A stretch of 64,000 nucleotides of DNA, from the NCBI RefSeq assembly GCF_000186225.1, contig NC_014933.1, positions 2,046,001-2,110,000 of the forward strand, in the 5' to 3' direction. The translations under genes were made by a program, and so were the position numbers. Positions 7,563 to 26,917 of this stretch are shown piece after piece (within the stretch, counting starts at the first letter, position 1; every line of letters begins with the position of its first letter). Under the pieces are notes generated by a model. The model was given only the letters and a program-made list of their open reading frames with translations. It did not search any database and was not told the origin of the DNA. The DNA is from Bacteroides helcogenes P 36-108. GTDB lineage: Bacteria > Bacteroidota > Bacteroidia > Bacteroidales > Bacteroidaceae.

Positions 7563-10500
7563 ATGAGCGATTATATAGATCAGAAAGAAAGAGAATATCA
7601 AAACGAAATAGTTAAACTGTTTTGTGATGAACTAAAATATGATTATTTAGGTAAACTGCAATACGCCAAAAGCAAGACTACACTTGATAATGGAGAAAAG
7701 AACTCGCCCATTATTGACAGTGAGGTAAGACGTTTTTTAAGTTCGCCAAGTAATCATTATACCGATTTTCAGATTGAAGAAGCTCTTCGTATATTAAAAG
7801 AAGAAACACGCTTGCCTGATAAAAAGCGTGGAATATTATCCGATACGAGTAATAGTGTTTACGAGCGTCTGATTACTCACATAGCCATTCAACCCGATGC
7901 GGAGCATAAACATGAAAATGTCACGCTGTTCGATTTCGACAATCCGCTTACCAATCACTTTGCCATAGCAGAAGAAGTGAGTTATATTGACCCTCTGACA
8001 GGAAAGCATAGCCGTCCGGATATAGTTGTCTATGTCAATGGTATAGCCCTTTGTGTGATTGAACTCAAACGTAGCACGGTATCGCTCGAAGAGGGTATAA
8101 AACAGTCGTTAAGTAATGAACTTGACTTGATACCGTCATTCTTTACCACTACCCAATTTACTGTTGCTGCAAGCGATAAAAATGGCTTCAAGTATGCTAC
8201 AATACTAACTCCTCAAAAATTTTGGTGTCATTGGAAGCGCGACGACCATGCTGTTGGTGTGAAGTTGACTGACAAAGAGGCATTTCGTGAATTCTTCAGA
8301 AAAGATGTATTTTTCGATCTCTTCCGTTATGGAGTAATCAATGATGGGGGAAGAAAGAAAGTGATGCGTCCACACCAATTCCATGCTTTGCGAGCTGCCA
8401 TGCCACGCTTGAAAGAGAAAACAGATGGTGTGATATGGCACAGTCAAGGCTCAGGCAAAAGCCTGACGATGGTATGGTTGGCTAAATACATACGCCGTAA
8501 TTTCAAGAATCCTCGAGTACTTGTCATCACCGACCGAACCGAACTTGATGTGCAAATCAACAACACGTTCTTGGGGGTTAGTGAAAGTATTTATCAGGCA
8601 AAGAGTGCCGACGACCTGTTAGATGCTCTTCAAATGGCCAATCGTGTGAAAGACAATTCTCACAAGTCTTGGCTTGTGTGTTCGTTGATACATAAATTCG
8701 GCAGGCATATCAACCCTGAAACAGGGAAGGAAGAGGTGGGCGATGATAATGCCAACATCCCTTTAGAAAAGTATCTCGAAGAGCTGCAAGCATTGCTTAA
8801 AGCAAAATATCCTAATGGTTTCAAAGCCAAAGGTGAACATAAATTTGTGTTTGTAGATGAATGCCACCGTACACAGGGCGGTCGTCTGCACGAAGCCATG
8901 CGTGCCATTATGGGCAGCGATGTCATGTTTATCGGTTTTACCGGCACACCGTTACTCCACGAGGAGAAGAAAAAAGGCGGTTACGCCCAATATACCAAGG
9001 TGGCCAATGAATCGGAACATCGTTTTGGCCCGTTCATTCACAAATATCTGCACAAAGAAGCCGTTGACGATAAGGTTATCCTCGACTTGCAATACGAGGG
9101 GCGCGATGTGGAACAAGAGGTCTCTGACAAGAACAAACTGGATGAGAAACTTGATGAGATGATGAAAGGCGTTGCCGAAGAGAATCGTAGAAATATCGAA
9201 GACCGCTGGGCTACTGTTCAGAAAATCTATTCCAGTCGGGAGCGTATCGAACGCATTGCCAACTCCATATTCGACGATATGGCTCGCTATCCGCTCAATC
9301 AGGATTGGTGCAATGCCATGTTGGTGTGCGACAGCATCTACTCGGCATACAAATACTATCAGTATTTTCAGCATAAGGCGGACAATACCATTTTAAAAGA
9401 CCGCTGTGCCGTAGTTACCAGTTATAACCCGAACGATGGCGATTTGCGTAAAAAAGAGGATGGCGACGAAGCCACTCAGGACGAAGCCAAATTCAAAAAC
9501 GAGATGGCAACCCAGTCGCACAAAGATTTGGGCGTGCGCAATGCCGAAGAATATGAGGTTAAAGCCAAACGTCTGTTTGTAAATCAACCGGCGTGTATGA
9601 AATTGCTTATCGTAGTAGATAAGTTGCTTACCGGTTTTGATGCACCTTCTGCTACTTACCTCTATATCGACAAGGATATGCGCGATCATAATCTATTCCA
9701 AGCCATTTGTCGAGTGAACCGCTTGGGAGTGGACTTGAAGCGCGACCCCGATGACGAAAATTCCGAGACCATTTTCACACATAAGGAGTTTGGCTTTATC
9801 GTTGATTTTAAGCATACTTTCTCCAATATAAAGAATGCTATTACCAATTTCAACGATGCCAATGGCGGTCTGTCGGGTTATGACTCCGAAGATATTGAGG
9901 GATTACTCGAAGATGCCATCACGCGAAATAAAAAACGACTCAACGATGCAAAGGAGGCATACGATGCCATGCGAAGCGATTGGGAGCGTCAAGGCATACA
10001 TACTGTCGATGAGGTAGTGGAGTATTTTCTGACTGATTTTGAAAACAATCCGGCAAAGGAACGACGCTTGTTGTTCTATAAAATAACACAGGCTTTCGTA
10101 GTGGCATACCATAATATAGCCGACTATATCATTCGTGCCGGATTCACTCAGGAAGAGGCTGATTGTCTGCACAAGTCGGCTTGCGAGGCATCATCATTGC
10201 GCCAAAGGGTAAAACAGGCATCCGACGAGGATTTCGATGTCAAGATGCGCGACCCACAGATGCGTCAATTGCTCGACCGCTATATCCGTGCCGATGAAGC
10301 AGATACGATTATTCCTGCCACTGCCGATTTCTCTTTTCTCGACCTGCTCACATCGTCAAGCAATACCGATGATGCTGCCCGTAAAGCTGAGGAAGAGGCC
10401 GGAAGTAAAAAGGCTGCTGCCGAAAAGATAACAGCCAAAGCTCGCTTGGTAATCAACGACTGGAAGCAGCGCGATAAGGCACAAGGCGAGTCGTTTGCTG

Positions 10501-10868
10501 TTCGTCTGCAAACCATCATCGATGAGATTAAGAAGGAGACGGAAGTAACCGTTGAAACCATCAAACAGCTTATCGAACTCATTAAGTCCATGAACGGCAA
10601 GTCCGCAACTCCGGAATCGTTGACGTCTGACTTTGAAAAGGCGTTATGGAACAACCGCAGCGACTGGACTAAACTTGACAACGATGCCGCAATAGAGCTT
10701 ATCCTTACTATTAGCGAATATTTCCAGATAAAAGTGTTCGATGGCTGGAAAGACCTTACTCGTCCTGCCGGCTTCAAATGTCTGAAAGGGCTGAACAAGA
10801 TTTTAGGCGAGAATAGTAACGAAGAGCAGATTTATGCAGTACACAGCATAGCTGCCAATAACTTATAA
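7563..10868 (+). CDS. hsdR: Type I restriction enzyme, R subunit
   Basis: 1101 residues, the normal size for HsdR. The N-terminal nuclease site is visible as PDIVV (about 151) and ELK (about 167), a PD-(D/E)XK arrangement. The motor follows: Walker A QGSGKSLT at about 294-301, the DECHR box (FVDECHRTQGG) and FTGTP, as in superfamily 2 translocases. HsdR translocates DNA after the HsdMS complex meets an unmethylated site and cleaves at a distance. The C-terminal third is helical and should bind the MTase core. It is the third gene of the operon and looks intact. Confidence 0.95.
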   Translation: MSDYIDQKEREYQNEIVKLFCDELKYDYLGKLQYAKSKTTLDNGEKNSPIIDSEVRRFLSSPSNHYTDFQIEEALRILKEETRLPDKKRGILSDTSNSVYERLITHIAIQPDAEHKHENVTLFDFDNPLTNHFAIAEEVSYIDPLTGKHSRPDIVVYVNGIALCVIELKRSTVSLEEGIKQSLSNELDLIPSFFTTTQFTVAASDKNGFKYATILTPQKFWCHWKRDDHAVGVKLTDKEAFREFFRKDVFFDLFRYGVINDGGRKKVMRPHQFHALRAAMPRLKEKTDGVIWHSQGSGKSLTMVWLAKYIRRNFKNPRVLVITDRTELDVQINNTFLGVSESIYQAKSADDLLDALQMANRVKDNSHKSWLVCSLIHKFGRHINPETGKEEVGDDNANIPLEKYLEELQALLKAKYPNGFKAKGEHKFVFVDECHRTQGGRLHEAMRAIMGSDVMFIGFTGTPLLHEEKKKGGYAQYTKVANESEHRFGPFIHKYLHKEAVDDKVILDLQYEGRDVEQEVSDKNKLDEKLDEMMKGVAEENRRNIEDRWATVQKIYSSRERIERIANSIFDDMARYPLNQDWCNAMLVCDSIYSAYKYYQYFQHKADNTILKDRCAVVTSYNPNDGDLRKKEDGDEATQDEAKFKNEMATQSHKDLGVRNAEEYEVKAKRLFVNQPACMKLLIVVDKLLTGFDAPSATYLYIDKDMRDHNLFQAICRVNRLGVDLKRDPDDENSETIFTHKEFGFIVDFKHTFSNIKNAITNFNDANGGLSGYDSEDIEGLLEDAITRNKKRLNDAKEAYDAMRSDWERQGIHTVDEVVEYFLTDFENNPAKERRLLFYKITQAFVVAYHNIADYIIRAGFTQEEADCLHKSACEASSLRQRVKQASDEDFDVKMRDPQMRQLLDRYIRADEADTIIPATADFSFLDLLTSSSNTDDAARKAEEEAGSKKAAAEKITAKARLVINDWKQRDKAQGESFAVRLQTIIDEIKKETEVTVETIKQLIELIKSMNGKSATPESLTSDFEKALWNNRSDWTKLDNDAAIELILTISEYFQIKVFDGWKDLTRPAGFKCLKGLNKILGENSNEEQIYAVHSIAANNL

Positions 10869-10884: not shown

Positions 10885-13236
10885 ATGGCAATTAAAAAAT
10901 CTCAGATATACAGCACACTCTGGAACAGCTGCGATGCGCTTCGCGGTTCGATGGATGCCAGCCAGTATAAGGACTATGTGCTGATGATACTTTTTATAAA
11001 ATATCTATCGGACAAGGAAAGCGATGAAGATTCTATTTTCACTATCCCCGATGGCTGTCGGTTTTCTGATTTTGTACTGCTGAAGGGCGATGACCATATA
11101 GGCGAACAGATCAACAAGAAGTTGGAAGCTATCAAAGAGGCTAATGCCATGTTTCTCAATCGCCTTGCTTTGCCCAATTTCAACGACCCATCAAAACTCG
11201 GTAAGCCCAAAGAGATGCGCGAAACACTGAGCAATCTGATTGCAGCTTTCGAGAGCGAAGACCTTGATTTTAGTAAAAACCGCACTGCCGACGACGATAT
11301 CCTTGGCGATGCCTATGAGTATCTCATGAAAAACTTTGCAGCCGAAAGCGGCAAGAGCAAAGGTCAGTTCTATACTCCTGCCGAAGTGAGTCGTGTTATG
11401 GCTAAGATGCTTCATCTTACGGAGTTTACTTCTCCATCCACAACCATTTACGACCCCACTTGCGGCTCCGGTTCGCTGCTGTTACGTGCTATTGGCGAAA
11501 CGCCCAACGGAGCAACACCTTACGGTCAGGAGAAAGACAACTCCACGGCTTCACTGGCTATTCTCAATATGTTGCTGCATGGCGTAGATACGGCTACTAT
11601 CGAACAGGGCGACACCATCAACAGTCCTGAATTTACCGAGGGCGGTCAGCTGAAAACGTTCGATGTGTGCGTGGCCAATCCGCCATTTTCTACCAAGTCG
11701 TGGCTGGGTGCTGCCGGTAAGGACGATGCTGTTTACCATCGCTGGACTGCCGAATTATGCCCACCCGACAAGTGTGGCGACTATGCTTTTCTGTTGCACC
11801 TTATTGCTTCAATGAAACCCGGTACGGGGCGTGGAGCTTGTATCTTGCCTCATGGCGTGCTGTTTCGTGGCAATGCAGAATACGAAATACGTAAGCATAT
11901 TATCCGTCAAGGTTGGATTGAGGGTATAGTAGGACTACCTGCCAACATCTTTTTCGGCACAGGCATACCGGCTTCTATTATCTTGATTAACAAGCAAGGT
12001 GCTGCCAACCGCAAAGGCATTTTCTTTGTCGATGCCAAAGACGGATTTGTGAAAGACGGCAACAAAAACCGCTTGCGCGAGCAGGATATCAAGCGCATTG
12101 TGGACACATGGAATGCTCGTCATGATGTGCCGAATTATGCCAAGTTTGTGCCTATCAGCGGTGAGAACTCCATTGAGGCAAACGATTACAACCTGAATAT
12201 TCCACGGTACATCCAGCCTGCCGATACTGAAATATGTCAGGACATCGATGCACACTTGCATGGCGGCATACCCAAGCACGATGTGGAGCAGCTTTCCGCT
12301 TATTGGACTGTATGCCCATCGCTTCGCAGTGCGCTGTTCGATGAAACAGCGGAACGTATCACGCTGCGCACAGATAAGGCAACGATTGCCAATGTCATTG
12401 CTGCCGACCATAGTTTCATCGAGCAAAAGAATCATTTTTCTCGCTCCATCAAGGCGTGGTGCGACAATATGCGTCCCTTGTTCCGTGGACTTACCACGAA
12501 TATCAAACCAAAGGCATTGATAGAAGAGTGGGCACAATCGCTACTCGACATCATGAAAGAGGATAAAAGTCTTGTCGATGCCTACGATGCTTACCAGCAG
12601 CTGCTCATTTATTGGCTAGATACGCTTCAGGACGATTGTTACATCATTTCACGCGACGGCTGGAAGCCTACCTTACTGCGTGGCACAAAGAAAACTGCCA
12701 CCTACGAGGATATGGTGTGCGACCTCTTGCCTGTTGATATAGTGCTAAAAGAATATTTTGCAGATGAACTTGATGAGATAGCTGCAATTACCGCCGAGCG
12801 TGACGAGGTAGCAGCCGAACTGCAATCCATGATTGATGCTGTCATAGAAGAAGCAGCCGAAGATGATGAAGATGAAATCAAGGCTCTTACCGACGAGGCA
12901 AAGAAAACCAAAGATTATAAGGCTAAGGATAAAGTGCGCAAAGCTATTGATAAACGACTCAAAGAGAAGAAAACCGCACTTACCGAAGCCGTGGCAGACA
13001 AGTATGCAACTTTTACCGAAGCCGAGGTAATAGACCTTGTAGTAGAAAAGAAATGGATAGCTACCATCATAACCATGATTCAAAGCGAGATGCAGCAGGT
13101 TACGCAGCGTCTCACTGCCGACATCACTGCCATCGTAGAGCGTTACGAGCAGACCCTCTCTGCTATTGATGCCGAAGTAGCCGATTTGGAAGCCAAAGTA
13201 AACAGTCATCTTGCTAAAATGGGATTCTCGCTATGA
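10885..13236 (+). CDS. hsdM: Type I restriction enzyme, M subunit (N6-adenine methyltransferase)
   Basis: 783 residues, longer than the roughly 500 of many HsdM proteins because of a long C-terminal extension (from about residue 500) ending in a predicted coiled coil with many Glu and Lys. SAM-binding motif I is DPTCGSGS at about 190-197 and the catalytic NPPF is at about 265-268. The N-terminal helical segment (SQYKDYVLMILFIKYLSD) matches HsdM_N. It methylates the recognised adenine with HsdS. Its stop overlaps the hsdS start by 4 bp (ATGA), indicating coupled translation. Confidence 0.95.
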   Translation: MAIKKSQIYSTLWNSCDALRGSMDASQYKDYVLMILFIKYLSDKESDEDSIFTIPDGCRFSDFVLLKGDDHIGEQINKKLEAIKEANAMFLNRLALPNFNDPSKLGKPKEMRETLSNLIAAFESEDLDFSKNRTADDDILGDAYEYLMKNFAAESGKSKGQFYTPAEVSRVMAKMLHLTEFTSPSTTIYDPTCGSGSLLLRAIGETPNGATPYGQEKDNSTASLAILNMLLHGVDTATIEQGDTINSPEFTEGGQLKTFDVCVANPPFSTKSWLGAAGKDDAVYHRWTAELCPPDKCGDYAFLLHLIASMKPGTGRGACILPHGVLFRGNAEYEIRKHIIRQGWIEGIVGLPANIFFGTGIPASIILINKQGAANRKGIFFVDAKDGFVKDGNKNRLREQDIKRIVDTWNARHDVPNYAKFVPISGENSIEANDYNLNIPRYIQPADTEICQDIDAHLHGGIPKHDVEQLSAYWTVCPSLRSALFDETAERITLRTDKATIANVIAADHSFIEQKNHFSRSIKAWCDNMRPLFRGLTTNIKPKALIEEWAQSLLDIMKEDKSLVDAYDAYQQLLIYWLDTLQDDCYIISRDGWKPTLLRGTKKTATYEDMVCDLLPVDIVLKEYFADELDEIAAITAERDEVAAELQSMIDAVIEEAAEDDEDEIKALTDEAKKTKDYKAKDKVRKAIDKRLKEKKTALTEAVADKYATFTEAEVIDLVVEKKWIATIITMIQSEMQQVTQRLTADITAIVERYEQTLSAIDAEVADLEAKVNSHLAKMGFSL

Positions 13237-14462
13237 TTGAAACAAAATTCAAACAGACGGAAATAGGGCTGATTCCTGAGGATTGGGAGGTATTCTCTGT
13301 CGGAAAGGATTGTATAGTAAAAGCTCGTATTGGTTGGCAAGGATTGACCACTTCCGAATATCTTGAAACAGGAGAATATGCTTTAATTACGAGTACTGAT
13401 ATTATTGACGGTAGTATCGATTGGAAAACTTGCTATTTTGTGAGTAAATTTCGTTATGAGCAGGATGTTAAAATCCAAGTGCAAGAGAACGATATTCTGA
13501 TTTCAAAGGACGGAACTATTGGAAAGGTAGGTATAGTGAGAAACCAGCCTTTTCCTGCGACACTCAATAGTGGTGTATTTGTAATTAGGGCAAAAAACGA
13601 TAAAAAACAAAAAGGTTTTTCATTGGCTTTTGTATCAGATTATTTTCGTGAATTTATCAATAGGTTAACTGCTGGTTCAACAATAGTACATTTATATCAA
13701 AAAGACATTGTACATTTCAAGTTTCCTTTGCCTATTGATACCTATGAACAGCAACGCATCGCCACAGCATTAAGCGATATAGATGCATTAATCTCTGCCT
13801 TGAATAAGAAAATCGAAAAGAAAAAACTCATCAAGCAGGGTGCAATGCAGCAACTACTCACCGGTCAAAAACGTCTTACTGGTTTTTCCGAACCGTGGGT
13901 GGAAAAGCGCTTGGGAGAAATTGGTAATTTATCTATGTGTAAAAGAATTTTTCAAGAAGAAACAAGCGAAAGTGGTGATGTGCCTTTTTTTAAAATAGGA
14001 ACATTTGGTCAGCAAGCAGACGCATACATATCTTCAACTAAATATGAAAAATTTAAGCAGATGTATAGATTCCCAGTCAAGGGAAGTATACTTATTTCTG
14101 CGGCTGGTACCATAGGACGCACTGTAGTTTATGATGGTGAACCAGCTTATTTTCAGGACTCGAATATAGTCTGGCTTGCTCATGATGAGGAAACAATTCT
14201 CAATGCTGTTCTATATCATGTGTATCACATTGTTGAATGGAATACAGAGAATACCACTATTGCTAGATTATACAATGACAATTTCAATAATACGGTAATA
14301 AATATTCCAGTTTCTTTATCTGAGCAAGCTGCCATTGCAGAAATCCTTTCCGATATGGATAAGGAAATAGCCAAATGGGAGGTCAAGCGCACCAAGTGCG
14401 AGTGCATCAAGCAAGGTATGATGCAGCAACTACTTACAGGAAAAATACGTCTGACTGATTAA
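13233..14462 (+). CDS. hsdS: Type I restriction enzyme, specificity subunit
   Basis: 409 residues with two target-recognition domains. Each ends in a conserved helical spacer region: QQLLTGQKRLTGF near residue 212 and QQLLTGKIRLTD at the C-terminus, the internal repeat expected for HsdS. It starts TEIGLIPEDWEV, the usual opening of the first domain. The protein sets the bipartite DNA target; the target cannot be read from the sequence. No second hsdS or partial copy lies nearby, so the locus does not look like an hsdS shufflon within this window. Confidence 0.93.
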   Translation: MIETKFKQTEIGLIPEDWEVFSVGKDCIVKARIGWQGLTTSEYLETGEYALITSTDIIDGSIDWKTCYFVSKFRYEQDVKIQVQENDILISKDGTIGKVGIVRNQPFPATLNSGVFVIRAKNDKKQKGFSLAFVSDYFREFINRLTAGSTIVHLYQKDIVHFKFPLPIDTYEQQRIATALSDIDALISALNKKIEKKKLIKQGAMQQLLTGQKRLTGFSEPWVEKRLGEIGNLSMCKRIFQEETSESGDVPFFKIGTFGQQADAYISSTKYEKFKQMYRFPVKGSILISAAGTIGRTVVYDGEPAYFQDSNIVWLAHDEETILNAVLYHVYHIVEWNTENTTIARLYNDNFNNTVINIPVSLSEQAAIAEILSDMDKEIAKWEVKRTKCECIKQGMMQQLLTGKIRLTD

Positions 14463-14475: not shown

Positions 14476-17400
14476 ATGGAATGGAAATTTTGGAAGAAAG
14501 TTTGTGCGGATAATACGTTAAAAGATGATAAGCAGGTGTCATTGACTCCTGCTAAGCTTAATCGTAATAACAAAAACGATGAAAAGCAGTATCGAAGTGT
14601 TCTTAATCTTGCACAAAAATTACAAGAGAAAGATGTATTGAATATGGCACTTACCGGTCCTTATGGTTCAGGTAAGAGTTCTATACTTCGTTCTCTAAAA
14701 CAAGATTTTCCTCAATATAAGTATCTTTCCATATCACTTGCCACACTAAAATCTCCTTTGGACAATGATAAGGATGCGATAGACGTAGATACAATGAACA
14801 ATCGCATCGAATACAGTATTTTACAGCAACTGATTTACAAGGAGAAACAAGAGACACTGTATAATTCACGACTAAAAAGGATTTACCATAAGTCAAGCGG
14901 ATTTCAATATGCTTTATCAATAGCAATAATGTTATATATTATTGCTTTGATTATTGTATTCGAGCCGTCATTTCTGAAAATAGATTGGATTTGTCAAAGT
15001 CTTGATAATCCGATATTGAACAAATGGGCAGATGGTATTGCTATTGCGTATATAGTTATGGCAACAATTATGTTTGTCAAACATACCATCAAATCATTGA
15101 GCAATAGCAAACTCAATAAATTAAATCTGAAAAATGGGGAGATAGAATTGAAGGAGTATAAAGATGATACATCTATTTTTAACAAACATATGGATGAAAT
15201 CGTATACTTTTTTCAGGTGACTAAGTATAATGTTGTGATTATAGAGGATTTAGATCGATTCAACAATACGGATATATTTCTAAAACTAAGAGAGGTGAAT
15301 CAACTCTTGAATCAATCCGAATCAGTGGGGCGTAAGATTGTGTTTATATATGCAGTTAGAGATGATATGTTCTTAGATGAAGAGCGCACAAAGTTCTTTG
15401 ATTATATAACAACTGTTATTCCTATAATCAACTCATCAAACTCGGCAGACAAACTAAAAGAGGAATTAGAGATAAAAGGATTTATAGATATTCGTGACGA
15501 TGTGATAGATAGCTTGGCTTTTTTCATCGATGATATGAGATTGCTTAAGAATATCGTCAATGAGTATGCCCAATATAGAGAAAAACTTGACGAGAAGCTC
15601 GATCAAGACAAGCTTCTTGCAATGATAGTATATAAAAATTATCACCCAAAAGATTTTGCAGATCTGCATAAAGGTGTGGGTGTTGTGTACGAATGTCTGC
15701 ATAAGAAAAAGGAATTATTGGCAGAACGTAATAAACAAATTGATGCACGTATAGATGAGATTAAGAAAAGACTTCATGCTTTAGAGACAACCCATGCTCT
15801 GCAAGAAAAGGAGTTACGATTGGTGTACATGGAGGGGTATCGAAGACAATTGCTAAAGACTGGAATTGATAATATTGTATCCTTCTGTATTGATAATAAT
15901 TATATTGTTCCAGAAGACATAGCGGAAAATGAAACACTGTTTAATACCTTTATTTCTTGCTCCGATATTAACTATAAATATTATGGCTATTATTCTTCTT
16001 ACTATGGTACTCATCGTTTAGAAAATAATAGCAGTAATGTCAACTTTAACCAAATAGAGAGAATGGTTAATTCAGATTTTACATATCATGAACGATTAGA
16101 AGCGTTACGAGAGGGTGAAAATAAAATTCGTGAACAAATCAATATATTGGAACTGTCACGTAATAGTCATTATGCGACCCCTATACAAGAGTTGTTGCAA
16201 GATATAGATATGCAAAATCATAAGATATTCAACGGGTTGAATGTTTCCAAGATGCTTGAGTCTTTTTTGAAGGAAGGGTTTATCAATGAGGACTATTTTG
16301 ACTATATATCTTTCTTCTTTGGCAAGTCTATCAATAAACATGACCATGATTTTATTCTCGAACTAAAGCTTCGACATAGTTTGTCGTATGATTATCCGAT
16401 TGATAAAGTAGAGCAGTGTGTCAAGAATATTCCTGATAAATGTTACAATGATGTAAGTATACTGAATATTCAGGTGGTGGATTACATTTGTCAGCATCTT
16501 GACGAGGAGCCAAATAATAAAAAGCTTTATGCAATTGTACAAGCTCTTACAAAAAGCAAAAAGTGGGACTTCTTGATTGCATACTATAATTCTGTTGAAA
16601 ATCCAAGCATATTCTTTAAGTATTTGGCTAATGTAATGAACGGACTATGGAAAGTCTTTGTTAAAATTAATTCAGATGAATTATATGAAGCATGGTTACG
16701 CTATATTGAGTTAGATCATTCTATAAAAGAGAGTCGCAGTTGGTTGGAAAAGAACTATGCTTTCATATCACATAGGGTTGAACTGATAGGATTTGACGTA
16801 ATTGCACAAATAATATCACAAGGAAAACTGATTTTTACAGTTATAGATGCAGAATCTGGAAGTTTGCTTGAATACGTTGTAGAAAACAAGGCGTATAGGC
16901 TCACTCCTACAAATGTTGTGTGTGCATTTGTTCATTGTCGCAATGAGAGGATTGAGAAATTAGATAGCTATCCATTGAATGTTACAATATTGAGAAATTG
17001 TGAACCTGTCAAGCCAATATCGGCTTACATAGATGAACATTTTGAGTCTGCGCTGAATGATGTATTTATTACAGATGCAGCAAAGCAGGAGTGTGAACAA
17101 ATTATTATTGAAATTATTAATTCTGAGGATATAACGGAAGAAATCAAACGGAAATATCTAACAGGACAACAGAATAAAATATCTCTTTCTGATGTTAATA
17201 ATTCGCTGTGGACACTTGCTATTGAAATTGATATAGTCACACCGTCATGGTCTGAGATATATGCTTTCTATACGAATCAGAATAACGTAATAGCCTCTAT
17301 ATTACGAATATTCATTGCAAAACATATTGATGAATTGGAGGATACTGCAGAGTTAGAAGAAACTCAGAAAGAACTATTGGCAAATAGTGCCTTGCTGACA

Positions 17401-18084
17401 TCTAACTTTGAAATTTCGGTGTACGATAAACTTATTAAAATATTTAATGGGGTTACATTTGAAGATGCAGATATTAGTAGTATAGACAATGCTCATCTTA
17501 AATCGTTGCTTTATGCTGATATGCTTCCATATAGCATATATTATACAACTACAATTAGAGATAGTCATAGTGATGTGCTTCCATATTATGTTGATAAGTA
17601 TTTAGATGAATGTGTGGAGAATATAGATGAAATGCCTACAACGATGGGACTATACAAACATTTTATGAGGAATCAGAAAGTGGTTGGTGAAAAAGCCCTA
17701 AAGGTAGTTCAACACTTCCTACCTTATATTGTGTGGGATAATGAACTGGCAATTATCACTCTTCCTGTTGTGAAAAACAATATTACACAATTTGATTACG
17801 AAACTGAAAAGAATATTTGGCTTCATTCCACGTCTTCGCAAGAACGATTTGCTTTTTTGATAACATTGATTGAGAAATATAAAAACGACTTTGATATTGT
17901 GACAGAGTTGGTTGAGTCTTTAGGAAATTCCTATCAAGGTATCACAGATAGAACAAAAAGGGCAACCATAGAAAATAATCAAATGAATGAAATGCTTTTA
18001 GAGAAACTTAAAACTATCGGATATATATCCTCATATCGAGAAGATGACGGCAAACTTCGTGTAAGTCATAAACGAAACAATTAA
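14476..18084 (+). CDS. YobI-like P-loop ATPase with membrane segments
   Basis: 1202 residues. The N-terminal part (YRSVLNLAQKL, then Walker A GPYGSGKSS at 61-69) resembles the YobI-type P-loop ATPase family. Two hydrophobic stretches at about 143-167 and 187-201 are likely transmembrane and interrupt the NTPase domain before a Walker B-like VVIIEDLDRF at about 253-262. The remaining 900 residues are helical, with a coiled coil near 420-450, and I see no known nuclease or protease motif. It starts 13 bp after hsdS in the same direction and is followed by two further genes with tiny gaps, so it belongs to the operon. KAP/STAND-like membrane ATPases often sense or execute in phage defence; that role here is inference. 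Confidence 0.75.
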   Translation: MEWKFWKKVCADNTLKDDKQVSLTPAKLNRNNKNDEKQYRSVLNLAQKLQEKDVLNMALTGPYGSGKSSILRSLKQDFPQYKYLSISLATLKSPLDNDKDAIDVDTMNNRIEYSILQQLIYKEKQETLYNSRLKRIYHKSSGFQYALSIAIMLYIIALIIVFEPSFLKIDWICQSLDNPILNKWADGIAIAYIVMATIMFVKHTIKSLSNSKLNKLNLKNGEIELKEYKDDTSIFNKHMDEIVYFFQVTKYNVVIIEDLDRFNNTDIFLKLREVNQLLNQSESVGRKIVFIYAVRDDMFLDEERTKFFDYITTVIPIINSSNSADKLKEELEIKGFIDIRDDVIDSLAFFIDDMRLLKNIVNEYAQYREKLDEKLDQDKLLAMIVYKNYHPKDFADLHKGVGVVYECLHKKKELLAERNKQIDARIDEIKKRLHALETTHALQEKELRLVYMEGYRRQLLKTGIDNIVSFCIDNNYIVPEDIAENETLFNTFISCSDINYKYYGYYSSYYGTHRLENNSSNVNFNQIERMVNSDFTYHERLEALREGENKIREQINILELSRNSHYATPIQELLQDIDMQNHKIFNGLNVSKMLESFLKEGFINEDYFDYISFFFGKSINKHDHDFILELKLRHSLSYDYPIDKVEQCVKNIPDKCYNDVSILNIQVVDYICQHLDEEPNNKKLYAIVQALTKSKKWDFLIAYYNSVENPSIFFKYLANVMNGLWKVFVKINSDELYEAWLRYIELDHSIKESRSWLEKNYAFISHRVELIGFDVIAQIISQGKLIFTVIDAESGSLLEYVVENKAYRLTPTNVVCAFVHCRNERIEKLDSYPLNVTILRNCEPVKPISAYIDEHFESALNDVFITDAAKQECEQIIIEIINSEDITEEIKRKYLTGQQNKISLSDVNNSLWTLAIEIDIVTPSWSEIYAFYTNQNNVIASILRIFIAKHIDELEDTAELEETQKELLANSALLTSNFEISVYDKLIKIFNGVTFEDADISSIDNAHLKSLLYADMLPYSIYYTTTIRDSHSDVLPYYVDKYLDECVENIDEMPTTMGLYKHFMRNQKVVGEKALKVVQHFLPYIVWDNELAIITLPVVKNNITQFDYETEKNIWLHSTSSQERFAFLITLIEKYKNDFDIVTELVESLGNSYQGITDRTKRATIENNQMNEMLLEKLKTIGYISSYREDDGKLRVSHKRNN

Positions 18085-18095
18085 ATATCAAGAAT

Positions 18096-18956
18096 ATGAA
18101 TAAAGAGAATAATAACAACGCTTTACCGCAAAGATATAGTATATTATTTTTATTTGTACTGATTATATTTATTGTCGCATTTATATGTTATTTGTGTCAT
18201 ACTCACGCGGTAACAATTAAATCGCAGCAAAGAATTATAGAAAGTTATGCCAAACATATTGAAAAAGCAGATAGTCTATATTGTGACATTGCCAAATACA
18301 ATAAAGATATAGTTATGGCTAGTAATAATATAGAAAATGCGATATTGTCAGATTCATTAATAATTGAGGCACTGAAGCCTCATAAATCATCAATTTCGCA
18401 AAGGCAGAATCTTGAAACTATAATAAGTAATCACTACAAGGAATGTCATATTTTGCATAAACAATATGATGAAAAATTAGCTAAAGACTCGTTGAGGTTA
18501 TCTACTGAGCGGGAACTTCTTGAAGGACAGACAAAAGCAATGCTTGAATTGCATTTGGGAAAAATCGAGCATGAATATAGTAATATAACTATGTGGGGAG
18601 CTGTTCTAACTATATTGTTTTTGGTCTTCAGTTTTTATTCTATTTTTAAAATGGATGAGCTTATCAAACAAGGAAAAGAAGGAGTTGATGACATTAAAGA
18701 GTTGAAAAAAGAAGGGAGTCAAATAGAAAAACAATATAAGGATGCCTTTGAAAAGACACAATTAAAATTAACTACTAAGGGAGACGAGATACTTAGAGGT
18801 TTTGAAAAACAATTATCGGATTTTTCTAAAACATATATAAGTTCCGCAATAGCCAAACAAAAAGATTTGGATGGAATTGTAACTAGAGCAAATAGTATTC
18901 TTGAAGAATTTAAGAATAGTGTATCTATAGAGGAAGGAGGACAAAAAAATGGATAG
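18096..18956 (+). CDS. Membrane protein with periplasmic/coiled-coil region, unknown
   Basis: 286 residues with two transmembrane segments, at about 15-34 and 165-184. Between them is a helical, probably extracytoplasmic, domain of about 130 residues, and after the second is a long helical cytoplasmic tail rich in Lys and Glu (about 190-286). I do not recognise a named family. It lies 11 bp behind the large ATPase gene and overlaps the next gene by 8 bp, so the three form a tight unit. It is plausibly the membrane partner of the ATPase. Confidence 0.65.
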   Translation: MNKENNNNALPQRYSILFLFVLIIFIVAFICYLCHTHAVTIKSQQRIIESYAKHIEKADSLYCDIAKYNKDIVMASNNIENAILSDSLIIEALKPHKSSISQRQNLETIISNHYKECHILHKQYDEKLAKDSLRLSTERELLEGQTKAMLELHLGKIEHEYSNITMWGAVLTILFLVFSFYSIFKMDELIKQGKEGVDDIKELKKEGSQIEKQYKDAFEKTQLKLTTKGDEILRGFEKQLSDFSKTYISSAIAKQKDLDGIVTRANSILEEFKNSVSIEEGGQKNG

Positions 18957-19410
18957 TAACCTGTTGTATACAAATTCTTCAGATTCTCTAATGTTAGCAA
19001 GAAATGCGCAAGCTCAAATTTCTCAGAAAGAATTAGAGATAAAATTATTGGATATTCACAATCAATATACTTACAGTGATCCTTATTCTTACTCTTCTGA
19101 TCGCATGAAGAGGCAAACAATGGAGATGGAAATTTTAAATTTAAAGAATAATCGAGATATGCATATTAATAATGCTATTGATTATGCTTTAATTTTGGCT
19201 GAGCAGGAAATGTTATCTAGAAATTCTTTTTCTATGGCAGCTATTGCGATAGATTCTATTAGTACGTTTCTCAGTTCACAAAAACTTGGTTTTAGAATTT
19301 CAATGACTTCTTATATGAAAATAGCTGAATTGTCATCTAAATTATTATTCTCTGGAATAGAATATTTGAATTTGAAAACGGCCATAGAAAAATTAAAATT
19401 TATAGTGTAA
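18949..19410 (+). CDS. Small hypothetical protein, third gene of ATPase unit
   Basis: 153 residues, helical, with no clear membrane segment or motif. The first half is polar (SQKELEIKLLDIHNQYTY region) and the second half is amphipathic. Its start overlaps the preceding membrane protein by 8 bp, supporting translational coupling. I do not recognise it. Base composition is more AT-rich than in the hsd genes, as in the two genes before it, suggesting the trio was acquired separately from hsdRMS. Confidence 0.55.
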   Translation: MDSNLLYTNSSDSLMLARNAQAQISQKELEIKLLDIHNQYTYSDPYSYSSDRMKRQTMEMEILNLKNNRDMHINNAIDYALILAEQEMLSRNSFSMAAIAIDSISTFLSSQKLGFRISMTSYMKIAELSSKLLFSGIEYLNLKTAIEKLKFIV

Positions 19411-19512: not shown

Positions 19513-20619
19513 ATGATAAATTTCGATGAATACATTCAGCAGGGTGAGCCGCAAAAGCGTGAGAAAGGCTATGCGTGGCAAACTGCAATAGGACTTCAAG
19601 CGGTAGATGGTTTGAAGCCCTCGGAATATCTTATAGAGACAGCTCGTAAGCATATAGAAGGGGATATAACGATTGATGAAGTGCAGCAGCTTATCAAGAG
19701 TTATTACGATTCAAAAGATGTTCGTACCGAAAAGGATAGCGACACGGAAGAAGCTGACAAGGTCTCTGCCAATATCGCCAAGTTGTTGAATGAGCGTTCA
19801 TTTGCTTTTACTGTGGCTGGCTTGACGGCTATTCATCGAAGAATATTTGATGGGGTGTTTAAGTTTGCCGGACGAATCCGGGATTACAATATTACCAAAA
19901 AGGAATGGGTGCTTCGTGGGGATACTGTATTGTATGTCAGTGCGGAGGATTTGCATCGGGCAATAGAGTATGATTTGGAGCAGGAGAAAAATTTCTCGTA
20001 TAAGGGTTTGTCTTTGGACGAAGTGGTAGAGCATATTGCAAAATTTGTTTCAAACCTTTGGCAGATACACCCTTTCGGAGAGGGCAATACCCGGACAACT
20101 GCGGTGTTCGCTATTAAGTATTTGAGAAGTATAGGTTTTGACGTAAACAATGACTTGTTTGCAGAACACTCCTGGTACTTTCGTAATGCATTGGTTCGTG
20201 CCAATTATCGCAATGTTCGTAAAGGGATAGAACCCGATATGCGTTTCTTGAATCTTTTTTTCAGAAACTTGATGATGGACGAGCGCAATGAATTGAAGAA
20301 TAGGTATATGGTAGTGAATTTGCCGTCAGAAATGGCAGATGAACATACCCCGATAAGTACCCGACAAGCATCCGACAAGCATCCGACAAGTTTGATGGAG
20401 ATAAATATGTTGATTAAGGTATTGGCGGAACAACAACTGTCAATCAAGGATATGCTTGCAGCTATGCAATTGAAAGACCGCGAAAATTTTATGGCAAATT
20501 ATCTGAATCCTGCCATAAAAGAGGGCTTTGTCACAATGCTTTATCCTGATAAACCTCGTCATCCACGTCAGAAATATTTGCTGACTGTAAAAGGATTAGC
20601 AGTGTATAATTCTAAATAA
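19513..20619 (+). CDS. Fic-family AMP-transferase-like protein with C-terminal winged-helix region
   Basis: 368 residues. The Fic core motif HPFGEGNTR lies at about 186-194, matching HxFx(D/E)GNxR, with the flap region upstream (DYNITKKEW, about 124). Fic proteins usually transfer AMP to a hydroxyl of a target protein; the target is unknown. The C-terminal 100 residues look like a helix-turn-helix/winged-helix domain, as in many Bacteroides Fic proteins, joined by a linker that contains three 11-bp DNA repeats. It begins 102 bp after the previous gene and may have its own promoter. It may act as a toxin or regulator. Confidence 0.85.
   Translation: MINFDEYIQQGEPQKREKGYAWQTAIGLQAVDGLKPSEYLIETARKHIEGDITIDEVQQLIKSYYDSKDVRTEKDSDTEEADKVSANIAKLLNERSFAFTVAGLTAIHRRIFDGVFKFAGRIRDYNITKKEWVLRGDTVLYVSAEDLHRAIEYDLEQEKNFSYKGLSLDEVVEHIAKFVSNLWQIHPFGEGNTRTTAVFAIKYLRSIGFDVNNDLFAEHSWYFRNALVRANYRNVRKGIEPDMRFLNLFFRNLMMDERNELKNRYMVVNLPSEMADEHTPISTRQASDKHPTSLMEINMLIKVLAEQQLSIKDMLAAMQLKDRENFMANYLNPAIKEGFVTMLYPDKPRHPRQKYLLTVKGLAVYNSK
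20359..20391 (+). repeat. Three tandem 11-bp repeats inside the Fic gene
   Basis: The units are ACCCGACAAGC, ATCCGACAAGC and ATCCGACAAGT, preceded by a degenerate 12-nt copy at 20347-20358. Because 11 is not a multiple of three, gain or loss of one unit would shift the reading frame between the Fic domain and the C-terminal domain. Three units together encode 11 residues (TRQASDKHPTS). Confidence 0.8.
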
Positions 20620-20626
20620 TGTGCCG

Positions 20627-21868
20627 ATGGATGAAAACAATATATTACCAATCACTTCTGATTTTGAGCAGATAAAAAGGCTAAGTGAAAATGGCATTGA
20701 ATTCTGGAGTTCTCGGGATTTGTGTATCGCATTGGGTTATAGTACATATCAAAAATTCTCTCGGATTATAGATAAAGCCATTGCGATAGCTAATACTAAA
20801 GGGCTTAATGCAGCAGAGCATTTTAACCTGATGGTTGAAATGGTCAAATTGGGTTCAGGAGCTTTTCGTAAGGTGGAAAATATTTACCTATCACGAATGG
20901 CTTGTTTTATAATTGCCGAAAATGCAGATGGGAAAAAACCACAAGTACAGATGGCAAGGGAGTATTTCAGGCAAGAGACACCTATATCAGAACTGATATA
21001 TAGTAATGTATCTTCCAATATTTTACTCTATAAAACAAAGCAAGGAGAAGTCCGTATTGAAGTGATTTTCAATAATGAAACATTTTGGATGTCGCAGAAG
21101 CGAATGGCTGATTTGTTCGGGGTGGATGTGAGAACCATAAACTATCATCTCGGTCAAATCTATGAATCCGGTGAACTTACCAAAGAGGCAACTATCCGAA
21201 AAATTGGGATAGTTCAATTAGAGGGAGATAGGGATGTTGAGCGTACACCATTGTTCTACAATTTGGATGCTGTTATTGCCGTAGGCTATCGAGTGAACAG
21301 TTATCAAGCCACTCAATTCAGGATTTGGGCTACATCAGTATTAAAGGATCTGATAGTTAAAGGCTTTGTGCTGGATGATGAGCGTTTCAAGCAAGGAAAA
21401 CATTTTGGTAAGGATTATTTCGATGATTTGTTAGAACGTATACGAGAAATATGTGCTTCGGAGCGTATGTATTATCAGAAAATCACGGATATTTATGAAG
21501 AATGCAGCATCGATTATGATCCAAAATCAGTGACAACCCAACAATTTTTTAAATCGGTACGAGATACCATGCATTGGGCTGTTACCCATCAGACCGAGGC
21601 TGAAATTGTTTATTTGAGAGCTGATGCAAAACTACCACATATGGGGCTTACAACATGGAAAAATGCACCTAATGGTAGAATCCAAAGGTCAGATGCGATT
21701 GCTGCCAAGAATTATTTATCTGATAGTGAGGCGTCTGGTTTAAATCGTCTATCTTCTGCTTTTATAGACATGGCAGAATTGCGTGCTCAAAAGCAACTTC
21801 TTTCTACAATGGAGGATTGGAAGAAATTTTTGGATGATTTTTTGACTTTATATGATTACGATAAATAG
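20627..21868 (+). CDS. DinD-like/RhuM-family fusion protein (amber-interrupted)
   Basis: About 413 residues to the TAG at 21866-21868. The first 120 residues resemble the start of DinD (FWSSRDLCIALGYSTYQKFS, then IIDKAI). The rest matches the RhuM family (FNNETFWMSQKRMADLFGVD, then TPLFYNLDAVIAVGYRVNS). RhuM proteins occur in phage-defence and pathogenicity islands; their biochemical function is not known. The same frame continues for 47 sense codons beyond the TAG with a family-like C-terminus, so the protein is truncated unless the stop is read through. An in-frame GTG lies at 20621; the ATG at 20627 is preferred. It starts 7 bp behind the Fic stop. Confidence 0.8.
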   Translation: MDENNILPITSDFEQIKRLSENGIEFWSSRDLCIALGYSTYQKFSRIIDKAIAIANTKGLNAAEHFNLMVEMVKLGSGAFRKVENIYLSRMACFIIAENADGKKPQVQMAREYFRQETPISELIYSNVSSNILLYKTKQGEVRIEVIFNNETFWMSQKRMADLFGVDVRTINYHLGQIYESGELTKEATIRKIGIVQLEGDRDVERTPLFYNLDAVIAVGYRVNSYQATQFRIWATSVLKDLIVKGFVLDDERFKQGKHFGKDYFDDLLERIREICASERMYYQKITDIYEECSIDYDPKSVTTQQFFKSVRDTMHWAVTHQTEAEIVYLRADAKLPHMGLTTWKNAPNGRIQRSDAIAAKNYLSDSEASGLNRLSSAFIDMAELRAQKQLLSTMEDWKKFLDDFLTLYDYDK

Positions 21869-22073: not shown

Positions 22074-23972
22074 CTAACATATACATGCTGTTTCCAAAAG
22101 TTCAATCATTTGAGACTCATGTTCTTGGCATTTAGTTTTAACCCAATCGTCATTTGAATAATTTTGTATAATATCGCCCATCATGCGAAGTTTCAAACTT
22201 CCTTTTTTAACCATCCTGCCATATGATTTCATTTTAGATTCTGGGGAAAGGTTGGAGAATTTTGAATTTACGCTTCTGGAAATGATACATAGGTTTCCGA
22301 ATGTATCTTTATCGTCCCAAGGATCAAAAGTACCATCAGACGGATGTTGTGGATACCAATGCTCTACAGAATTACGGAATTCGAACTCAAAATCTGCATA
22401 CTTCTTCTTATCATCTTTCCAGAGTAAGTAGTCTAAGAAATTAAACACTATATGAGGTGTCTTGATGCCAAGTTTATAATCACCCTTATCCAAGAAATTT
22501 TCTTTGGTTGCTTGCACCGCTACCTTTTCTGCTTCGGTTATTAGTTCCGGAGTTTCGTCATTTTTAAACAACCACAAGAGAAGGTCTGTTATCCAGTGCA
22601 TAACCTTTGGCGATGTATATGACACACGAAGAGCAGATTGAATCATCAGGCATTCCTTGTTGCGAGGAGCATAGGTCTTTTCCCATTCCTTATCGTAGTT
22701 CAATTTCGTGTTTATATAGTATGCTTTCTTTTTAGAACTTTGTCCGGATGTATGCAGTTCTTTAAGACTCCAAACCCCATCTTTGTCTTCACCTGTGTAC
22801 TCTCGTTTTATAATAAACTGGTCAAAAATAAAGCGGGATTGTAATAGGTGGATAATGAACATTTGAGAAAATTCTTCTTTGTTGTCCATTATTGCTTTAT
22901 TATCCATTGTCCCGTGCTTTATCACTTTTCCAAAGTCGGCAATGAGTTTCTTGTCATCAAGCAACTCTCCAAAGTTTTTTTTCAATGATACATTATATCG
23001 CTCAACAAAAACTCGCAGCGAGTGAAGTAAAAAGTATGGGAAATCTATAATGCTGTCAAAGCGAATATGCTTGTCGTTATCGTCAGTGCCGTCCACATCA
23101 TTCACCTGAAATTCGTGTTTGATGATTTCGTTTATAGTTACATCGTTTTCAGAGTCTTCAGTAATGTAAAAAGAATCATTATATTCATTCCAATTATCGG
23201 CAGGGTAATAGTTCCATTCACTTCCAAAGATGTTTAGCCTCTCTTGTGGTGCGAAGTGCATTTGAACATAACCGGTCATATCACTACAAGCATTCCATAC
23301 TCTCGAAAAGAATTCTTGTTCATTTCTATCATTGAGATGCCTCATAAGTTGGGCTTTAAGAATATCGTGTTGTTCTAGTTGTTCGCCACGAGTATTCATA
23401 ATCTCGAAATATCGGTTCAAGTCAGTGTTTTCCGGCACCTCAATTTGATAGAGAATTACCTGCTTCAAGCGAGAGACAAATTTGCGTTTGTCTATAATCT
23501 GATTATTGTTGAATTTTTGTCGTATTACTTTTATGCCATTAAGAATCGACTGTTCAACTCTTTCTTCATCATCGGAGTAAACATCGCCATTCAATACTTT
23601 TTGAATGTTAGAAAGCGTATAGTTGGAATTGGCTCGGCAATCAAAAGAGAGCGTTTGCCCAACTTCACCATCTAATACCTGTTCAGAAAACAAGTATTGT
23701 AATAGCAGGTACAGTGTTGTGAGGCGTTGTTGGCCATCTACAACTTCATATGTTTCCGACTTATCCTTTATTTTGGAAACAACAAGCGAACCTATGTAGT
23801 AATTTTCGGATTGGTTAATGTCGTAAATATCGTCAATTAACTGCTCTATTTCTTTGTCCTCCCAAGCATAAGCGCGTTGGTAGCGGGGAATAACGTATCG
23901 AACATTTGTATCGAAAATTGTTGTTTCATCCAAAATCCTTAATTCTTTTACCATATCAATATCCATATCCAT
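22074..23972 (-). CDS. DUF262/DUF1524 protein, GmrSD-like nuclease
   Basis: 632 residues. The N-terminal DUF262 domain has YQRAY at about 31 and the DGQQR signature at 79-83. Near the C-terminus, EHWYPQ with H538, then GNLCIISRSVNS (N560 and N569), matches the His-Asn pattern of the DUF1524 HNH-like nuclease. GmrSD enzymes use a DUF262 NTPase and a DUF1524 nuclease to cut modified phage DNA. It overlaps the preceding gene by 17 bp; ATG codons at 23972, 23966 and 23954 are all possible starts. Probably a type IV-like restriction or related defence nuclease. Confidence 0.85.
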   Translation of the reverse strand: MDMDIDMVKELRILDETTIFDTNVRYVIPRYQRAYAWEDKEIEQLIDDIYDINQSENYYIGSLVVSKIKDKSETYEVVDGQQRLTTLYLLLQYLFSEQVLDGEVGQTLSFDCRANSNYTLSNIQKVLNGDVYSDDEERVEQSILNGIKVIRQKFNNNQIIDKRKFVSRLKQVILYQIEVPENTDLNRYFEIMNTRGEQLEQHDILKAQLMRHLNDRNEQEFFSRVWNACSDMTGYVQMHFAPQERLNIFGSEWNYYPADNWNEYNDSFYITEDSENDVTINEIIKHEFQVNDVDGTDDNDKHIRFDSIIDFPYFLLHSLRVFVERYNVSLKKNFGELLDDKKLIADFGKVIKHGTMDNKAIMDNKEEFSQMFIIHLLQSRFIFDQFIIKREYTGEDKDGVWSLKELHTSGQSSKKKAYYINTKLNYDKEWEKTYAPRNKECLMIQSALRVSYTSPKVMHWITDLLLWLFKNDETPELITEAEKVAVQATKENFLDKGDYKLGIKTPHIVFNFLDYLLWKDDKKKYADFEFEFRNSVEHWYPQHPSDGTFDPWDDKDTFGNLCIISRSVNSKFSNLSPESKMKSYGRMVKKGSLKLRMMGDIIQNYSNDDWVKTKCQEHESQMIELLETACIC

Positions 23973-25293
23973 TTAATTGGCGAAGTTGATTATACAAATT
24001 TTGTCGTTCTTCATTGGCATCTTTGAAGTCTGTAGTCATATTAAGTCGCATACCGGAAATTTCGGTGTGCTTACGAGCATAGGTTATCATAGATATTACA
24101 GGCATAGCATTACTGTATTTGTCATTGTCACCTAAGCCTATAGCATAGCGATTGATGGTGTCAAAACCTAAATGTTGCATATCTACTCTTATCATCATAG
24201 CCCAGGTTAATAGTTTCTTTATAGCCATGACATCAAAATTATGAAACCGATCGTAGTAACAGAGTAAAGTACAGAAGAATAGATTGCGAGCGTAGTTAAA
24301 GCCAGTAGATGATGATTTGCAAGCCTTATCAAGTGCTTCAATAGTCTGAACATCACTTCCATCTGCAAGAATAAGTTTTAGATCTTGGAAATTTTGATTA
24401 GTAATGATTTCTTCCTTGATATTGCGCAACATCAGCATATAATGGTCAACCATTTCAAAAAAGTCGCCTCCAGAGATGAAGGGTTCCGTCAGTAAAAAGT
24501 AGGGCATTGCTTTGTTCGCTCTACGGGCGTATGTATAACCCGTTTTTTCTTCAATTCCTTTATAAATGTCTATATCTGCTGTTGTAAAATTGCCACATTT
24601 CCGACGTTTTGTCCAGTTCCACAGTGGGAACAGATAAAGGTCAAATAGTTCTCGGATAGCTTTAGGATTTTTAGACTCCCATTTCACAACAGCATTCTGC
24701 ATCTCATATTTATCGTGAATTTCCCTAAGATGATATGCTTTAAGCAGGTCGTGTGGGTATAAGGCACGACCACGAGTGTTTTGTGAATCAAACAACTGAA
24801 AAGCCTCGTCAATCTTGTTCACTATGATAACAACAACTTCCAGTGTGTCTTTTAATGCTCGATTGGAATTTTTTTTCTGTTCATTGTCAACAGAAGAAAA
24901 CCATTCGTGTATTGTTATATAGTTGTCGTGTAGATTCGTTTGTGTAATCTTATTCGAAAATTTGGTATTTGATAAATTGCACTGAAAGCCTGGTGTCAGG
25001 TATGTTTTCAATAATAGCAAAGATAGTATGCGTTGCTGTCCATCGACTATTTCATACTCATCGCTTTCGTTTCTATGCAGAATTACTGTACCTATGCGAT
25101 ACTTAAAATTTGCATACTTCCGACTTTCTTCAATGCTTTTTTGAATATCGAGAATAAGGTCGGTTATGTTCTTGTCTGTCCATTTGTATGGGCGTTGGTA
25201 ATCTGGAATGATTAGATTCTTCCTTAATAATTTATCTATAGACCATATTTGAGGCCTGTCTTTTTTCAATTTCATCGTAATACTATAAGTCAA
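23956..25293 (-). CDS. DUF262 protein without nuclease domain
   Basis: 445 residues with DYQRPYKW at about 31 and DGQQR at 84-88, the two hallmarks of DUF262. No DUF1524 His-Asn motif is visible at the C-terminus. It is the first gene of the two-gene cassette; its stop lies inside the start of the larger DUF262/DUF1524 gene. Such pairs are common in bacterial defence islands, where the short partner probably supplies NTPase or sensing function. ATG codons at 25293 and 25275 are both plausible starts. Confidence 0.85.
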   Translation of the reverse strand: MTYSITMKLKKDRPQIWSIDKLLRKNLIIPDYQRPYKWTDKNITDLILDIQKSIEESRKYANFKYRIGTVILHRNESDEYEIVDGQQRILSLLLLKTYLTPGFQCNLSNTKFSNKITQTNLHDNYITIHEWFSSVDNEQKKNSNRALKDTLEVVVIIVNKIDEAFQLFDSQNTRGRALYPHDLLKAYHLREIHDKYEMQNAVVKWESKNPKAIRELFDLYLFPLWNWTKRRKCGNFTTADIDIYKGIEEKTGYTYARRANKAMPYFLLTEPFISGGDFFEMVDHYMLMLRNIKEEIITNQNFQDLKLILADGSDVQTIEALDKACKSSSTGFNYARNLFFCTLLCYYDRFHNFDVMAIKKLLTWAMMIRVDMQHLGFDTINRYAIGLGDNDKYSNAMPVISMITYARKHTEISGMRLNMTTDFKDANEERQNLYNQLRQLNGYGY

Positions 25294-25420: not shown

Positions 25421-25499
25421 GAAATCTGAAAGTGTAAGGAATTGGGGTCGCAATAGAGTTACATATCCTCCATAGTCCAAAGGCAAGTCTCGATGTCGT
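25421..25499. repeat. 79-bp direct repeat, copy B
   Basis: Partner of 21977-22055 with 8 mismatches, mostly transitions. The right half is the intact 3' end of the AAA ATPase gene; the left half is a decayed copy of the RhuM tail (KCKELGSQ, stop). The intact halves are thus split between the two copies, one in each. Confidence 0.9.
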
Positions 25500-26790
25500 A
25501 TTTTGAGAGAATGGCGTTTTTGAGATGCTCGACCTTTCCGGTGAAGAGGTTATGGTCGTAATTGCGTCGTTGACGCTTAACCTCGGCTACCAATGCCTTT
25601 TTTCCTTCGGCTCGTATGCCTACAATGTCTATCTCGTTGGCTTCTTTACCTTTCTTGCGTTCCCACCACGAGCCGATGGCTGAATATTGATGGCTCTCTA
25701 TCATCTTCAAACGGAAATACCGTTCGAGCATCAGTCCTGAGAATGTGGGATAATCTGATTCGAGTATCTGCCGAAGAAGTACGAAATTCCGTATCTCGAC
25801 GATGGATTGGTTCTTGTCGTAGTACCTGAACCAGAATTTCAGGAAATTGTCGTTGATTTCGTAGCGGATGGCTTGTGTGCGCTCTTTCGACATTATCGGT
25901 CGCTGACGAGTGATAAGAGAATAATCATCAATCAGTCGTCGGAGTTGTCCGCCGATACTTATTTCTCCCAATGCAGCTTCAATATCTGACTGATTGTTTA
26001 TGCCAGAGGCAATACAACTTAGTATTGAGAAATAGATGCCATAGTCCTTGCCAAACTCTTCAATCAGGATATTCTTGCCTTCATCTGTGAATGGAGAGTT
26101 ATCGCGCACGATGTAATCAAGCATTCCGGTGATGGACAAGTCGGTATTCTCACACAGTAGTTCAATATATTTCGGGACACCGCCGGTAATTGAATATAGT
26201 GCAAGCAGTTCATCGTTATCATAGTCGGGACGGTAGTCGTTCATTATTTCTTTAAGGGTATCAGTACCAAATCCGGTAAGACGGATTATGTTGTCAGCCC
26301 TACCGAATAGCGGTTCTTTTGCTCCTTCAAAAATACGGTGCATCATCGAAAACACCGAACCCATCAGAATCAGATTTACATGAGTCTCTTTGCGGTATTG
26401 ATCCCAAATATTCTGCACATCGCTGAAAACCGAGGGATTTATTTTCTCGAACTCTTGAAACTCGTCGATTATGAGATTGAACTTTTGTGTCTTTGCCAAT
26501 TCCATAATTATCTGGAAAAGTGAGCGGAAACTCTTTATCTCCGCCGGTATATAACAGCCTAAAACAGAGACAATCAGTTGCGAGAACTCCGCACACAGAG
26601 CAGCCTCATTCTTGCGGCTTACAAACAGATACACAGTAGGGTATTCACCTTTTGTGGCTTCCACTGCAAGCGATGTCTTGCCAATGCGACGCCGACCTGT
26701 AATTACTGTCATGCGTGAATGACTGTCAAATGAGAGCTTCTGAATGCGATGCAGCTCCTGCAATTCAGATGTACGATCATAAAACTTCAT
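25459..26790 (-). CDS. AAA ATPase of the archaeal-type/DUF234 family
   Basis: About 443 residues from the ATG at 26790 (MKFYDRTSELQEL, the family's usual start); the frame is open to 26871 but that region holds a palindrome. Walker A is GRRRIGKTS near residue 32-40 and Walker B is LIIDEFQEF. The C-terminal third (LMLERYFRLK, WWERKKGKEANEIDIVGI) resembles DUF234, a PD-(D/E)XK-like fold with E..D and later EVK. These ATPases are widespread in Bacteroidetes and archaea, with unclear function. The 3' end overlaps the 79-bp repeat. Confidence 0.85.
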   Translation of the reverse strand: MKFYDRTSELQELHRIQKLSFDSHSRMTVITGRRRIGKTSLAVEATKGEYPTVYLFVSRKNEAALCAEFSQLIVSVLGCYIPAEIKSFRSLFQIIMELAKTQKFNLIIDEFQEFEKINPSVFSDVQNIWDQYRKETHVNLILMGSVFSMMHRIFEGAKEPLFGRADNIIRLTGFGTDTLKEIMNDYRPDYDNDELLALYSITGGVPKYIELLCENTDLSITGMLDYIVRDNSPFTDEGKNILIEEFGKDYGIYFSILSCIASGINNQSDIEAALGEISIGGQLRRLIDDYSLITRQRPIMSKERTQAIRYEINDNFLKFWFRYYDKNQSIVEIRNFVLLRQILESDYPTFSGLMLERYFRLKMIESHQYSAIGSWWERKKGKEANEIDIVGIRAEGKKALVAEVKRQRRNYDHNLFTGKVEHLKNAILSKYDIETCLWTMEDM

Positions 26791-26812
26791 AGTAAATTCT
26801 CTGTTATTTATA

Positions 26813-26841: not shown

Positions 26842-26917
26842 AAAATTACAAATAATCTCTGATATGACCAAGCAAACGCCAATGATAATTGCTTTCTAAA
26901 GATTCGCTAACTTTCAA

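Follow-up and report, generated by a model that had tools for sequence, protein, structure and literature searches.

A predicted Tmn-like ATPase gene and a separable gene pair behind a type I restriction-modification operon of Bacteroides helcogenes

The locus and its mobile surroundings

The window analysed here, a stretch of 64,000 nucleotides from Bacteroides helcogenes P 36-108 (NC_014933.1, positions 2,046,001 to 2,110,000), contains a type I restriction-modification (RM) operon on the forward strand, formed by hsdR (7563-10868; TIGR00348, E 6e-118; PADLOC REase_I, E 8e-212), hsdM (10885-13236; TIGR00497, E 2e-74; PADLOC MTase_I) and hsdS (13233-14462; PF01420, E 5e-47). Directly behind hsdS, and on the same strand, lie genes for a membrane ATPase of 1202 residues (14476-18084), a membrane protein of 286 residues, here called P2 (18096-18956), and a small protein of 153 residues, P3 (18949-19410). 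The spacing that an earlier sequence-only reading had given for these genes, with gaps of 13 and 11 bp and then an overlap of 8 bp, matches the open reading frame coordinates exactly. The 1202-codon frame can be taken as real rather than a chance frame because it matches a curated family at E 1e-115, and P2 and P3 because conserved homologues of both exist. The locus is presumably co-transcribed; a scan for promoters (64 found, 52 expected) and terminators (12 and 10) was uninformative on operon structure. With GC contents of 0.329, 0.301 and 0.286, the ATPase, P2 and P3 genes are indeed more AT-rich than hsdR, hsdM and hsdS (0.441, 0.474 and 0.370), hsdS already being intermediate, and a separate origin of the three genes, as the earlier reading had suggested, is likely.

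Downstream on the same strand, a gene for a Fic-domain protein with a Fic-like_C region (19513-20619; PF02661, PF21247, PADLOC PDC-S72) adjoins the three genes as a neighbour of the two cassettes described below, and is followed by a RhuM/Bro-N family gene (20621-21868; PF13310, E 6e-88; PADLOC PDC-S05). Beyond these, on the reverse strand, are two adjoining genes of the GmrSD/DUF262 type (22074-23972 and 23956-25293) and one for an ATPase_2/DUF234 protein (25459-26871), which are likely further defence cargo of the same mobile element. The backbone of this integrative mobilisable element lies beside the cargo (26918-32163, reverse strand), and its integrase (30054-31169) and HTH protein (31285-32163) are 93% and 97% identical to those of an element in another genome of the set (G021) that carries a different RM operon together with the ATPase. 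Within the backbone, a chimeric reading frame (27458-28534, reverse strand) joins an AAA/RepA-like start to the last part of a relaxase. Compared with a related element (L007, 4185-6065), about 1.9 kb are missing at this point, including a mobC-like gene and the start of the relaxase, so that the element in the window may no longer be self-mobilising. Upstream of the RM operon, a HipA gene (4628-5896) is 89% identical to its counterpart in genome G109 (L057, 2702-3961), while the RM proteins beside it are just 31-48% identical between the two.

The YobI-type ATPase and its relation to Tmn

Residues 44-405 of the ATPase give a full-length match to the YobI-ATPase domain PF20693 (E 1.4e-115; 387 bits against a Pfam cut-off of 27), which bears out its identification as a YobI-like membrane ATPase; the description of this gene as uncharacterised does not hold, since it belongs to a described family, YobI-ATPase/Tmn. 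PF20693 spans just the N-terminal third of the protein, the remainder lying outside it. The sole strong PADLOC match is to Tmn (PDLC02220; 264 bits, E 8.6e-79), and its best stretch stops at residue 630. An intact Walker A motif, GPYGSGKSS, is found at residues 61-69, where it had been placed before, and an intact Walker B motif, VVIIEDLDR, at 253-261, both aligned with those of all relatives. Two hydropathy peaks at about 149-167 and 187-205 mark a pair of transmembrane (TM) segments between the two motifs, which agrees with the earlier placement of this pair inside the NTPase region. Sequence matches in the PDB were confined to the surroundings of Walker A, bar one at E 0.19, and no usable account of YobI was found in the literature.

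The Tmn protein of Escherichia coli belongs to the KAP-family NTPases, has two TM segments and blocks several phages through a mechanism described as unexplored; escape mutations lie in the phage gene nmad5 (Yamashita et al. 2025, PMC11846954). Both canonical Tmn and the window protein are P-loop NTPases of 1200-1270 residues that combine a Walker A motif of the form GPYG[SA]GKSS, a TM pair, a Walker B motif containing EDLDR and a long C-terminal part. A Klebsiella plasmid protein scores 2115 bits against the Tmn model that gives the window protein 264, and the two can be aligned across Walker A, the TM pair and Walker B. Because identity to this Tmn is 42-43% in the nucleotide-binding segments but only 14-19% beyond residue 410, that is over the C-terminal 800 residues, the first gene is best described as a distant, Tmn-like member of a known anti-phage ATPase family, set apart also by its location in the tail region of a type I RM operon. 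Its putative anti-phage role follows from family membership, and the low C-terminal identity means that it may sense or act differently from Tmn. Defence, which the earlier reading had proposed, thus seems a likely role, given the match to Tmn and the defence-loaded mobile element in which the gene is embedded.

PF20693 is present in 10 of the 159 genomes of the window's genus, five of which (G021, G022, G101, G107 and G196) encode an ATPase 76% identical to that of the window. Here the gene order is hsdM-hsdS-integrase-hsdS-hsdR-DUF262-ATPase, with the ATPase last and neither P2 nor P3 behind it; these elements are close copies of one another and count as about one event. At the DNA level, compared for G021 and G022 only, the match to the window covers 14476-18086, beginning at the ATG of the ATPase gene and ending 2 bp past its stop codon. 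The other relatives, in G190, G197, G157 and G019, occupy different locations, the copy in G197 about 4 kb from TIR/SLOG genes. P2 and P3 were missing beside the ATPase in every neighbourhood read other than the window.

Two features of the related elements deserve mention in their own right. In G196 the ATPase is divided between two reading frames of 634 and 566 residues (L036, 8728-12347) in an otherwise nearly identical element, reflecting a broken gene copy or else an error in sequencing. Elsewhere, a tyrosine recombinase gene lies between two hsdS genes (L006, 2082-5362; L007, 15999-19323) whose specificity parts differ between copies, an arrangement that looks like phase-variable shuffling of RM specificity.

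The P2-P3 pair

Full-length P2-P3 loci number three: that of the window and two others. In Xylanibacter caecicola (L005) the order is hsdM-hsdS-hsdR-P2-P3-AlbA_2/HATPase/Fic-like_C, while in a genome from another family of the order (G489, L041) the pair follows genes for an SNF2/PLD helicase, an HATPase/Fic-like_C protein, a type IIG methylase, an SMC-like ATPase, two proteins without a Pfam match and an AlbA_2 protein. The window's P2 is 43% and 39% identical to its homologues in L005 and L041, and P3 is 42% and 45% identical to its own, which are always directly 3' of P2. At all three loci P3 begins before P2 has ended (overlaps of 8, 1 and 4 bp), which suggests translational coupling, and each locus encodes a DNA methyltransferase in the same operon. 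P2 is rare: it occurs in one of 159 genomes of the window's genus and is matched over its full length twice among 393 genomes of the order, and searches of 395 genomes of the phylum and 200 of the L005 genus recovered only the window's own copy and that of L005, respectively. A C-terminal remnant of P3 lies near a contig edge in G263 (L049, 224-412), in whose genome P2 was not found; the gene right before it looks like a Fic-type C-terminus. Weak matches to P2 in G228 and G424, and to P3 in G133 and G013, were regarded as chance hits. An origin as phage or plasmid genes was rejected, there being no match in phages (P2), plasmids (P2 and P3) or viral contigs. Against Pfam, NCBIfam, PADLOC and PHROG the pair gave only weak, chance-like or coiled-coil matches below the cut-offs. 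The P2-P3 pair, unmatched in the family libraries searched, merits experimental work.

Neither the L005 nor the L041 genome encodes a YobI-ATPase anywhere. The sequence-only reading had treated the three genes as one unit, and whether they recur together had been set beforehand as a check on that view: they rarely co-occur, and all three were found together in the window alone. One may still picture a single three-component membrane system, with P2-P3 sensing for the ATPase or acting as its effector and the other loci representing reduced or mixed versions, and the tight spacing, common strand, uniformly low GC content and presence of TM segments in two of the three products fit such a picture. 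It is nevertheless improbable, as the ATPase stands without P2 and P3 in all other neighbourhoods read, P2-P3 stands without any YobI-ATPase in two genomes, and the DNA match to the other element spans the ATPase gene alone. The trio as a single unit was therefore rejected. Since the ATPase and P2-P3 each recur without the other, we prefer to read the locus as a type I RM operon whose tail holds two interchangeable cassettes, a Tmn-like gene and the new pair P2-P3. The three products could nonetheless cooperate in the window, given their spacing, despite being separable elsewhere.

As had been described, P2 crosses the membrane twice (residues 16-34 and 166-184), and its long tail is predicted to be helical. 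Its N-terminus is poorly conserved and the loop of about 130 residues between the TM segments, which is probably periplasmic, moderately so; the juxtamembrane-TM2 stretch is 71-93% identical and the coiled coil 15-53%. The structure model shows an extended helical hairpin, with modest to weak confidence (pLDDT 69.5), and a fold search with it returned only generic coiled coils, none at E <0.001, so that a chemoreceptor-like or SMC-like identity was not accepted. P3 is modelled fairly confidently as six helices (pLDDT 81.5) and is without a known fold, its search giving nothing below E 0.05.

The TM2/coil module of P2 is also found N-terminally in membrane-anchored TPR proteins of Bacteroidales (L052, 8278-9699, E 4e-10; L053, 8335-9732, E 4e-6). 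Unlike P2, these have no separate P3 but TPR repeats in the same chain (in cis), lack the long loop between TM segments and have no PADLOC match. Together with P2 they possibly constitute a wider family of membrane-anchored accessory proteins in which the module would anchor, and perhaps oligomerise, an interaction partner at the membrane, with TPR repeats in cis and P3 in trans. Because the same module anchors the TPR proteins, P2 may tether P3 at the membrane. One TPR protein is encoded one gene from AbiH; the gene for the other lies on an element that has an integrase and a partial hsdS.

Beside the methyltransferase, each of the three P2-P3 loci has a gene for a helicase-type restriction protein, as would be expected if P2 and P3 were accessory subunits that tether the restriction enzyme at the membrane where phage DNA enters. 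The enzymes concerned are, however, distantly related (between the window and L005, HsdR is 23% and HsdM 28% identical over parts, and the L041 enzyme is of type IIG), which makes a common docking surface less likely, and we consider such subunits hard to credit. An overlapping pair of short genes next to a mobile element, with relatives of HipA, Fic and RhuM close by, also recalls a toxin-antitoxin-like stability module, where one protein would perturb the membrane, its partner would hold that protein in check and the module would serve mainly to retain the mobile element. This too is unlikely, for P2 and P3 match no toxin or antitoxin family, and P2 exceeds typical membrane toxins in length and has a large loop between its TM segments. 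More plausible, though still tentative and put by us at somewhat less than even, is a reading in which P2-P3 forms an undescribed anti-phage cassette of Bacteroidales, made up of two genes and anchored in the membrane, that can be fitted to DNA-modification operons of different kinds (type I RM, helicase/IIG methylase). It would work with no recognisable enzyme domain, and P2 would pass a signal to P3, either across the membrane or along it. That the pair would serve defence is suggested by its defence-type neighbourhoods at three of three loci, a small number.

Operon tails and a proposed mechanism

RM cores of the same subfamily as that of the window occur in G012 and G109 (HsdM 48-49% and HsdR about 39% identical, with YgjP), and among 32 chosen genomes of the genus two HsdR relatives were found, at 42-43%. 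In place of the trio, the core in G012 carries NsnABC and that in G109 AbiH, so that the window genes appear to fit a pattern of exchangeable add-ons at a variable RM tail.

EcoprrI is an RM operon with an embedded back-up nuclease, PrrC, an anticodon nuclease tied to the Hsd proteins. The window locus resembles it in having a further defence gene within or after a type I RM operon, but differs in that no nuclease domain was found in the trio with Pfam, NCBIfam or PADLOC, searches that also agree with the earlier statement that the 900 helical residues of the ATPase hold no known effector motif. The ZorA protein of Zorya is a membrane protein with a long cytoplasmic coiled coil, encoded beside a DNA-acting defence protein, and P2 resembles it in these general features; with PADLOC, neither P2, P3 nor the L041 homologues matched ZorA, ZorB or any Zorya model.

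In the mechanism we propose, to which as a whole, with its two cassettes, we assign a probability of about 0.6, the 3' end of the RM operon would be a docking place for interchangeable defence add-ons, of which there would be two here. The first would be a single-gene, inner-membrane P-loop NTPase, its nucleotide domain anchored by the TM pair between Walker A and Walker B and its long helical C-terminal part probably sensing and oligomerising; ATP-dependent recognition of a phage product would be expected to let it halt infection, as E. coli Tmn does. In the second, the P2 hairpin would self-associate through its conserved TM2 and coiled coil and bind the small helical P3, holding it at the cytoplasmic face. 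Acting independently of Tmn, P2-P3 would then be a membrane-bound accessory of DNA-modification-based defence, and both cassettes would be expected to act at the membrane and to protect against phage.

What had looked like a plausible three-gene system is thereby corrected into two separable cassettes. The known range of the poorly understood Tmn-like ATPases now takes in the tail ends of type I RM operons in Bacteroidales, and a new membrane pair, P2-P3, is named in a testable form. If the tails of these operons exchange Tmn, P2-P3, NsnABC and AbiH, as the loci compared here suggest, they would be a useful place for a systematic search for back-up defences.
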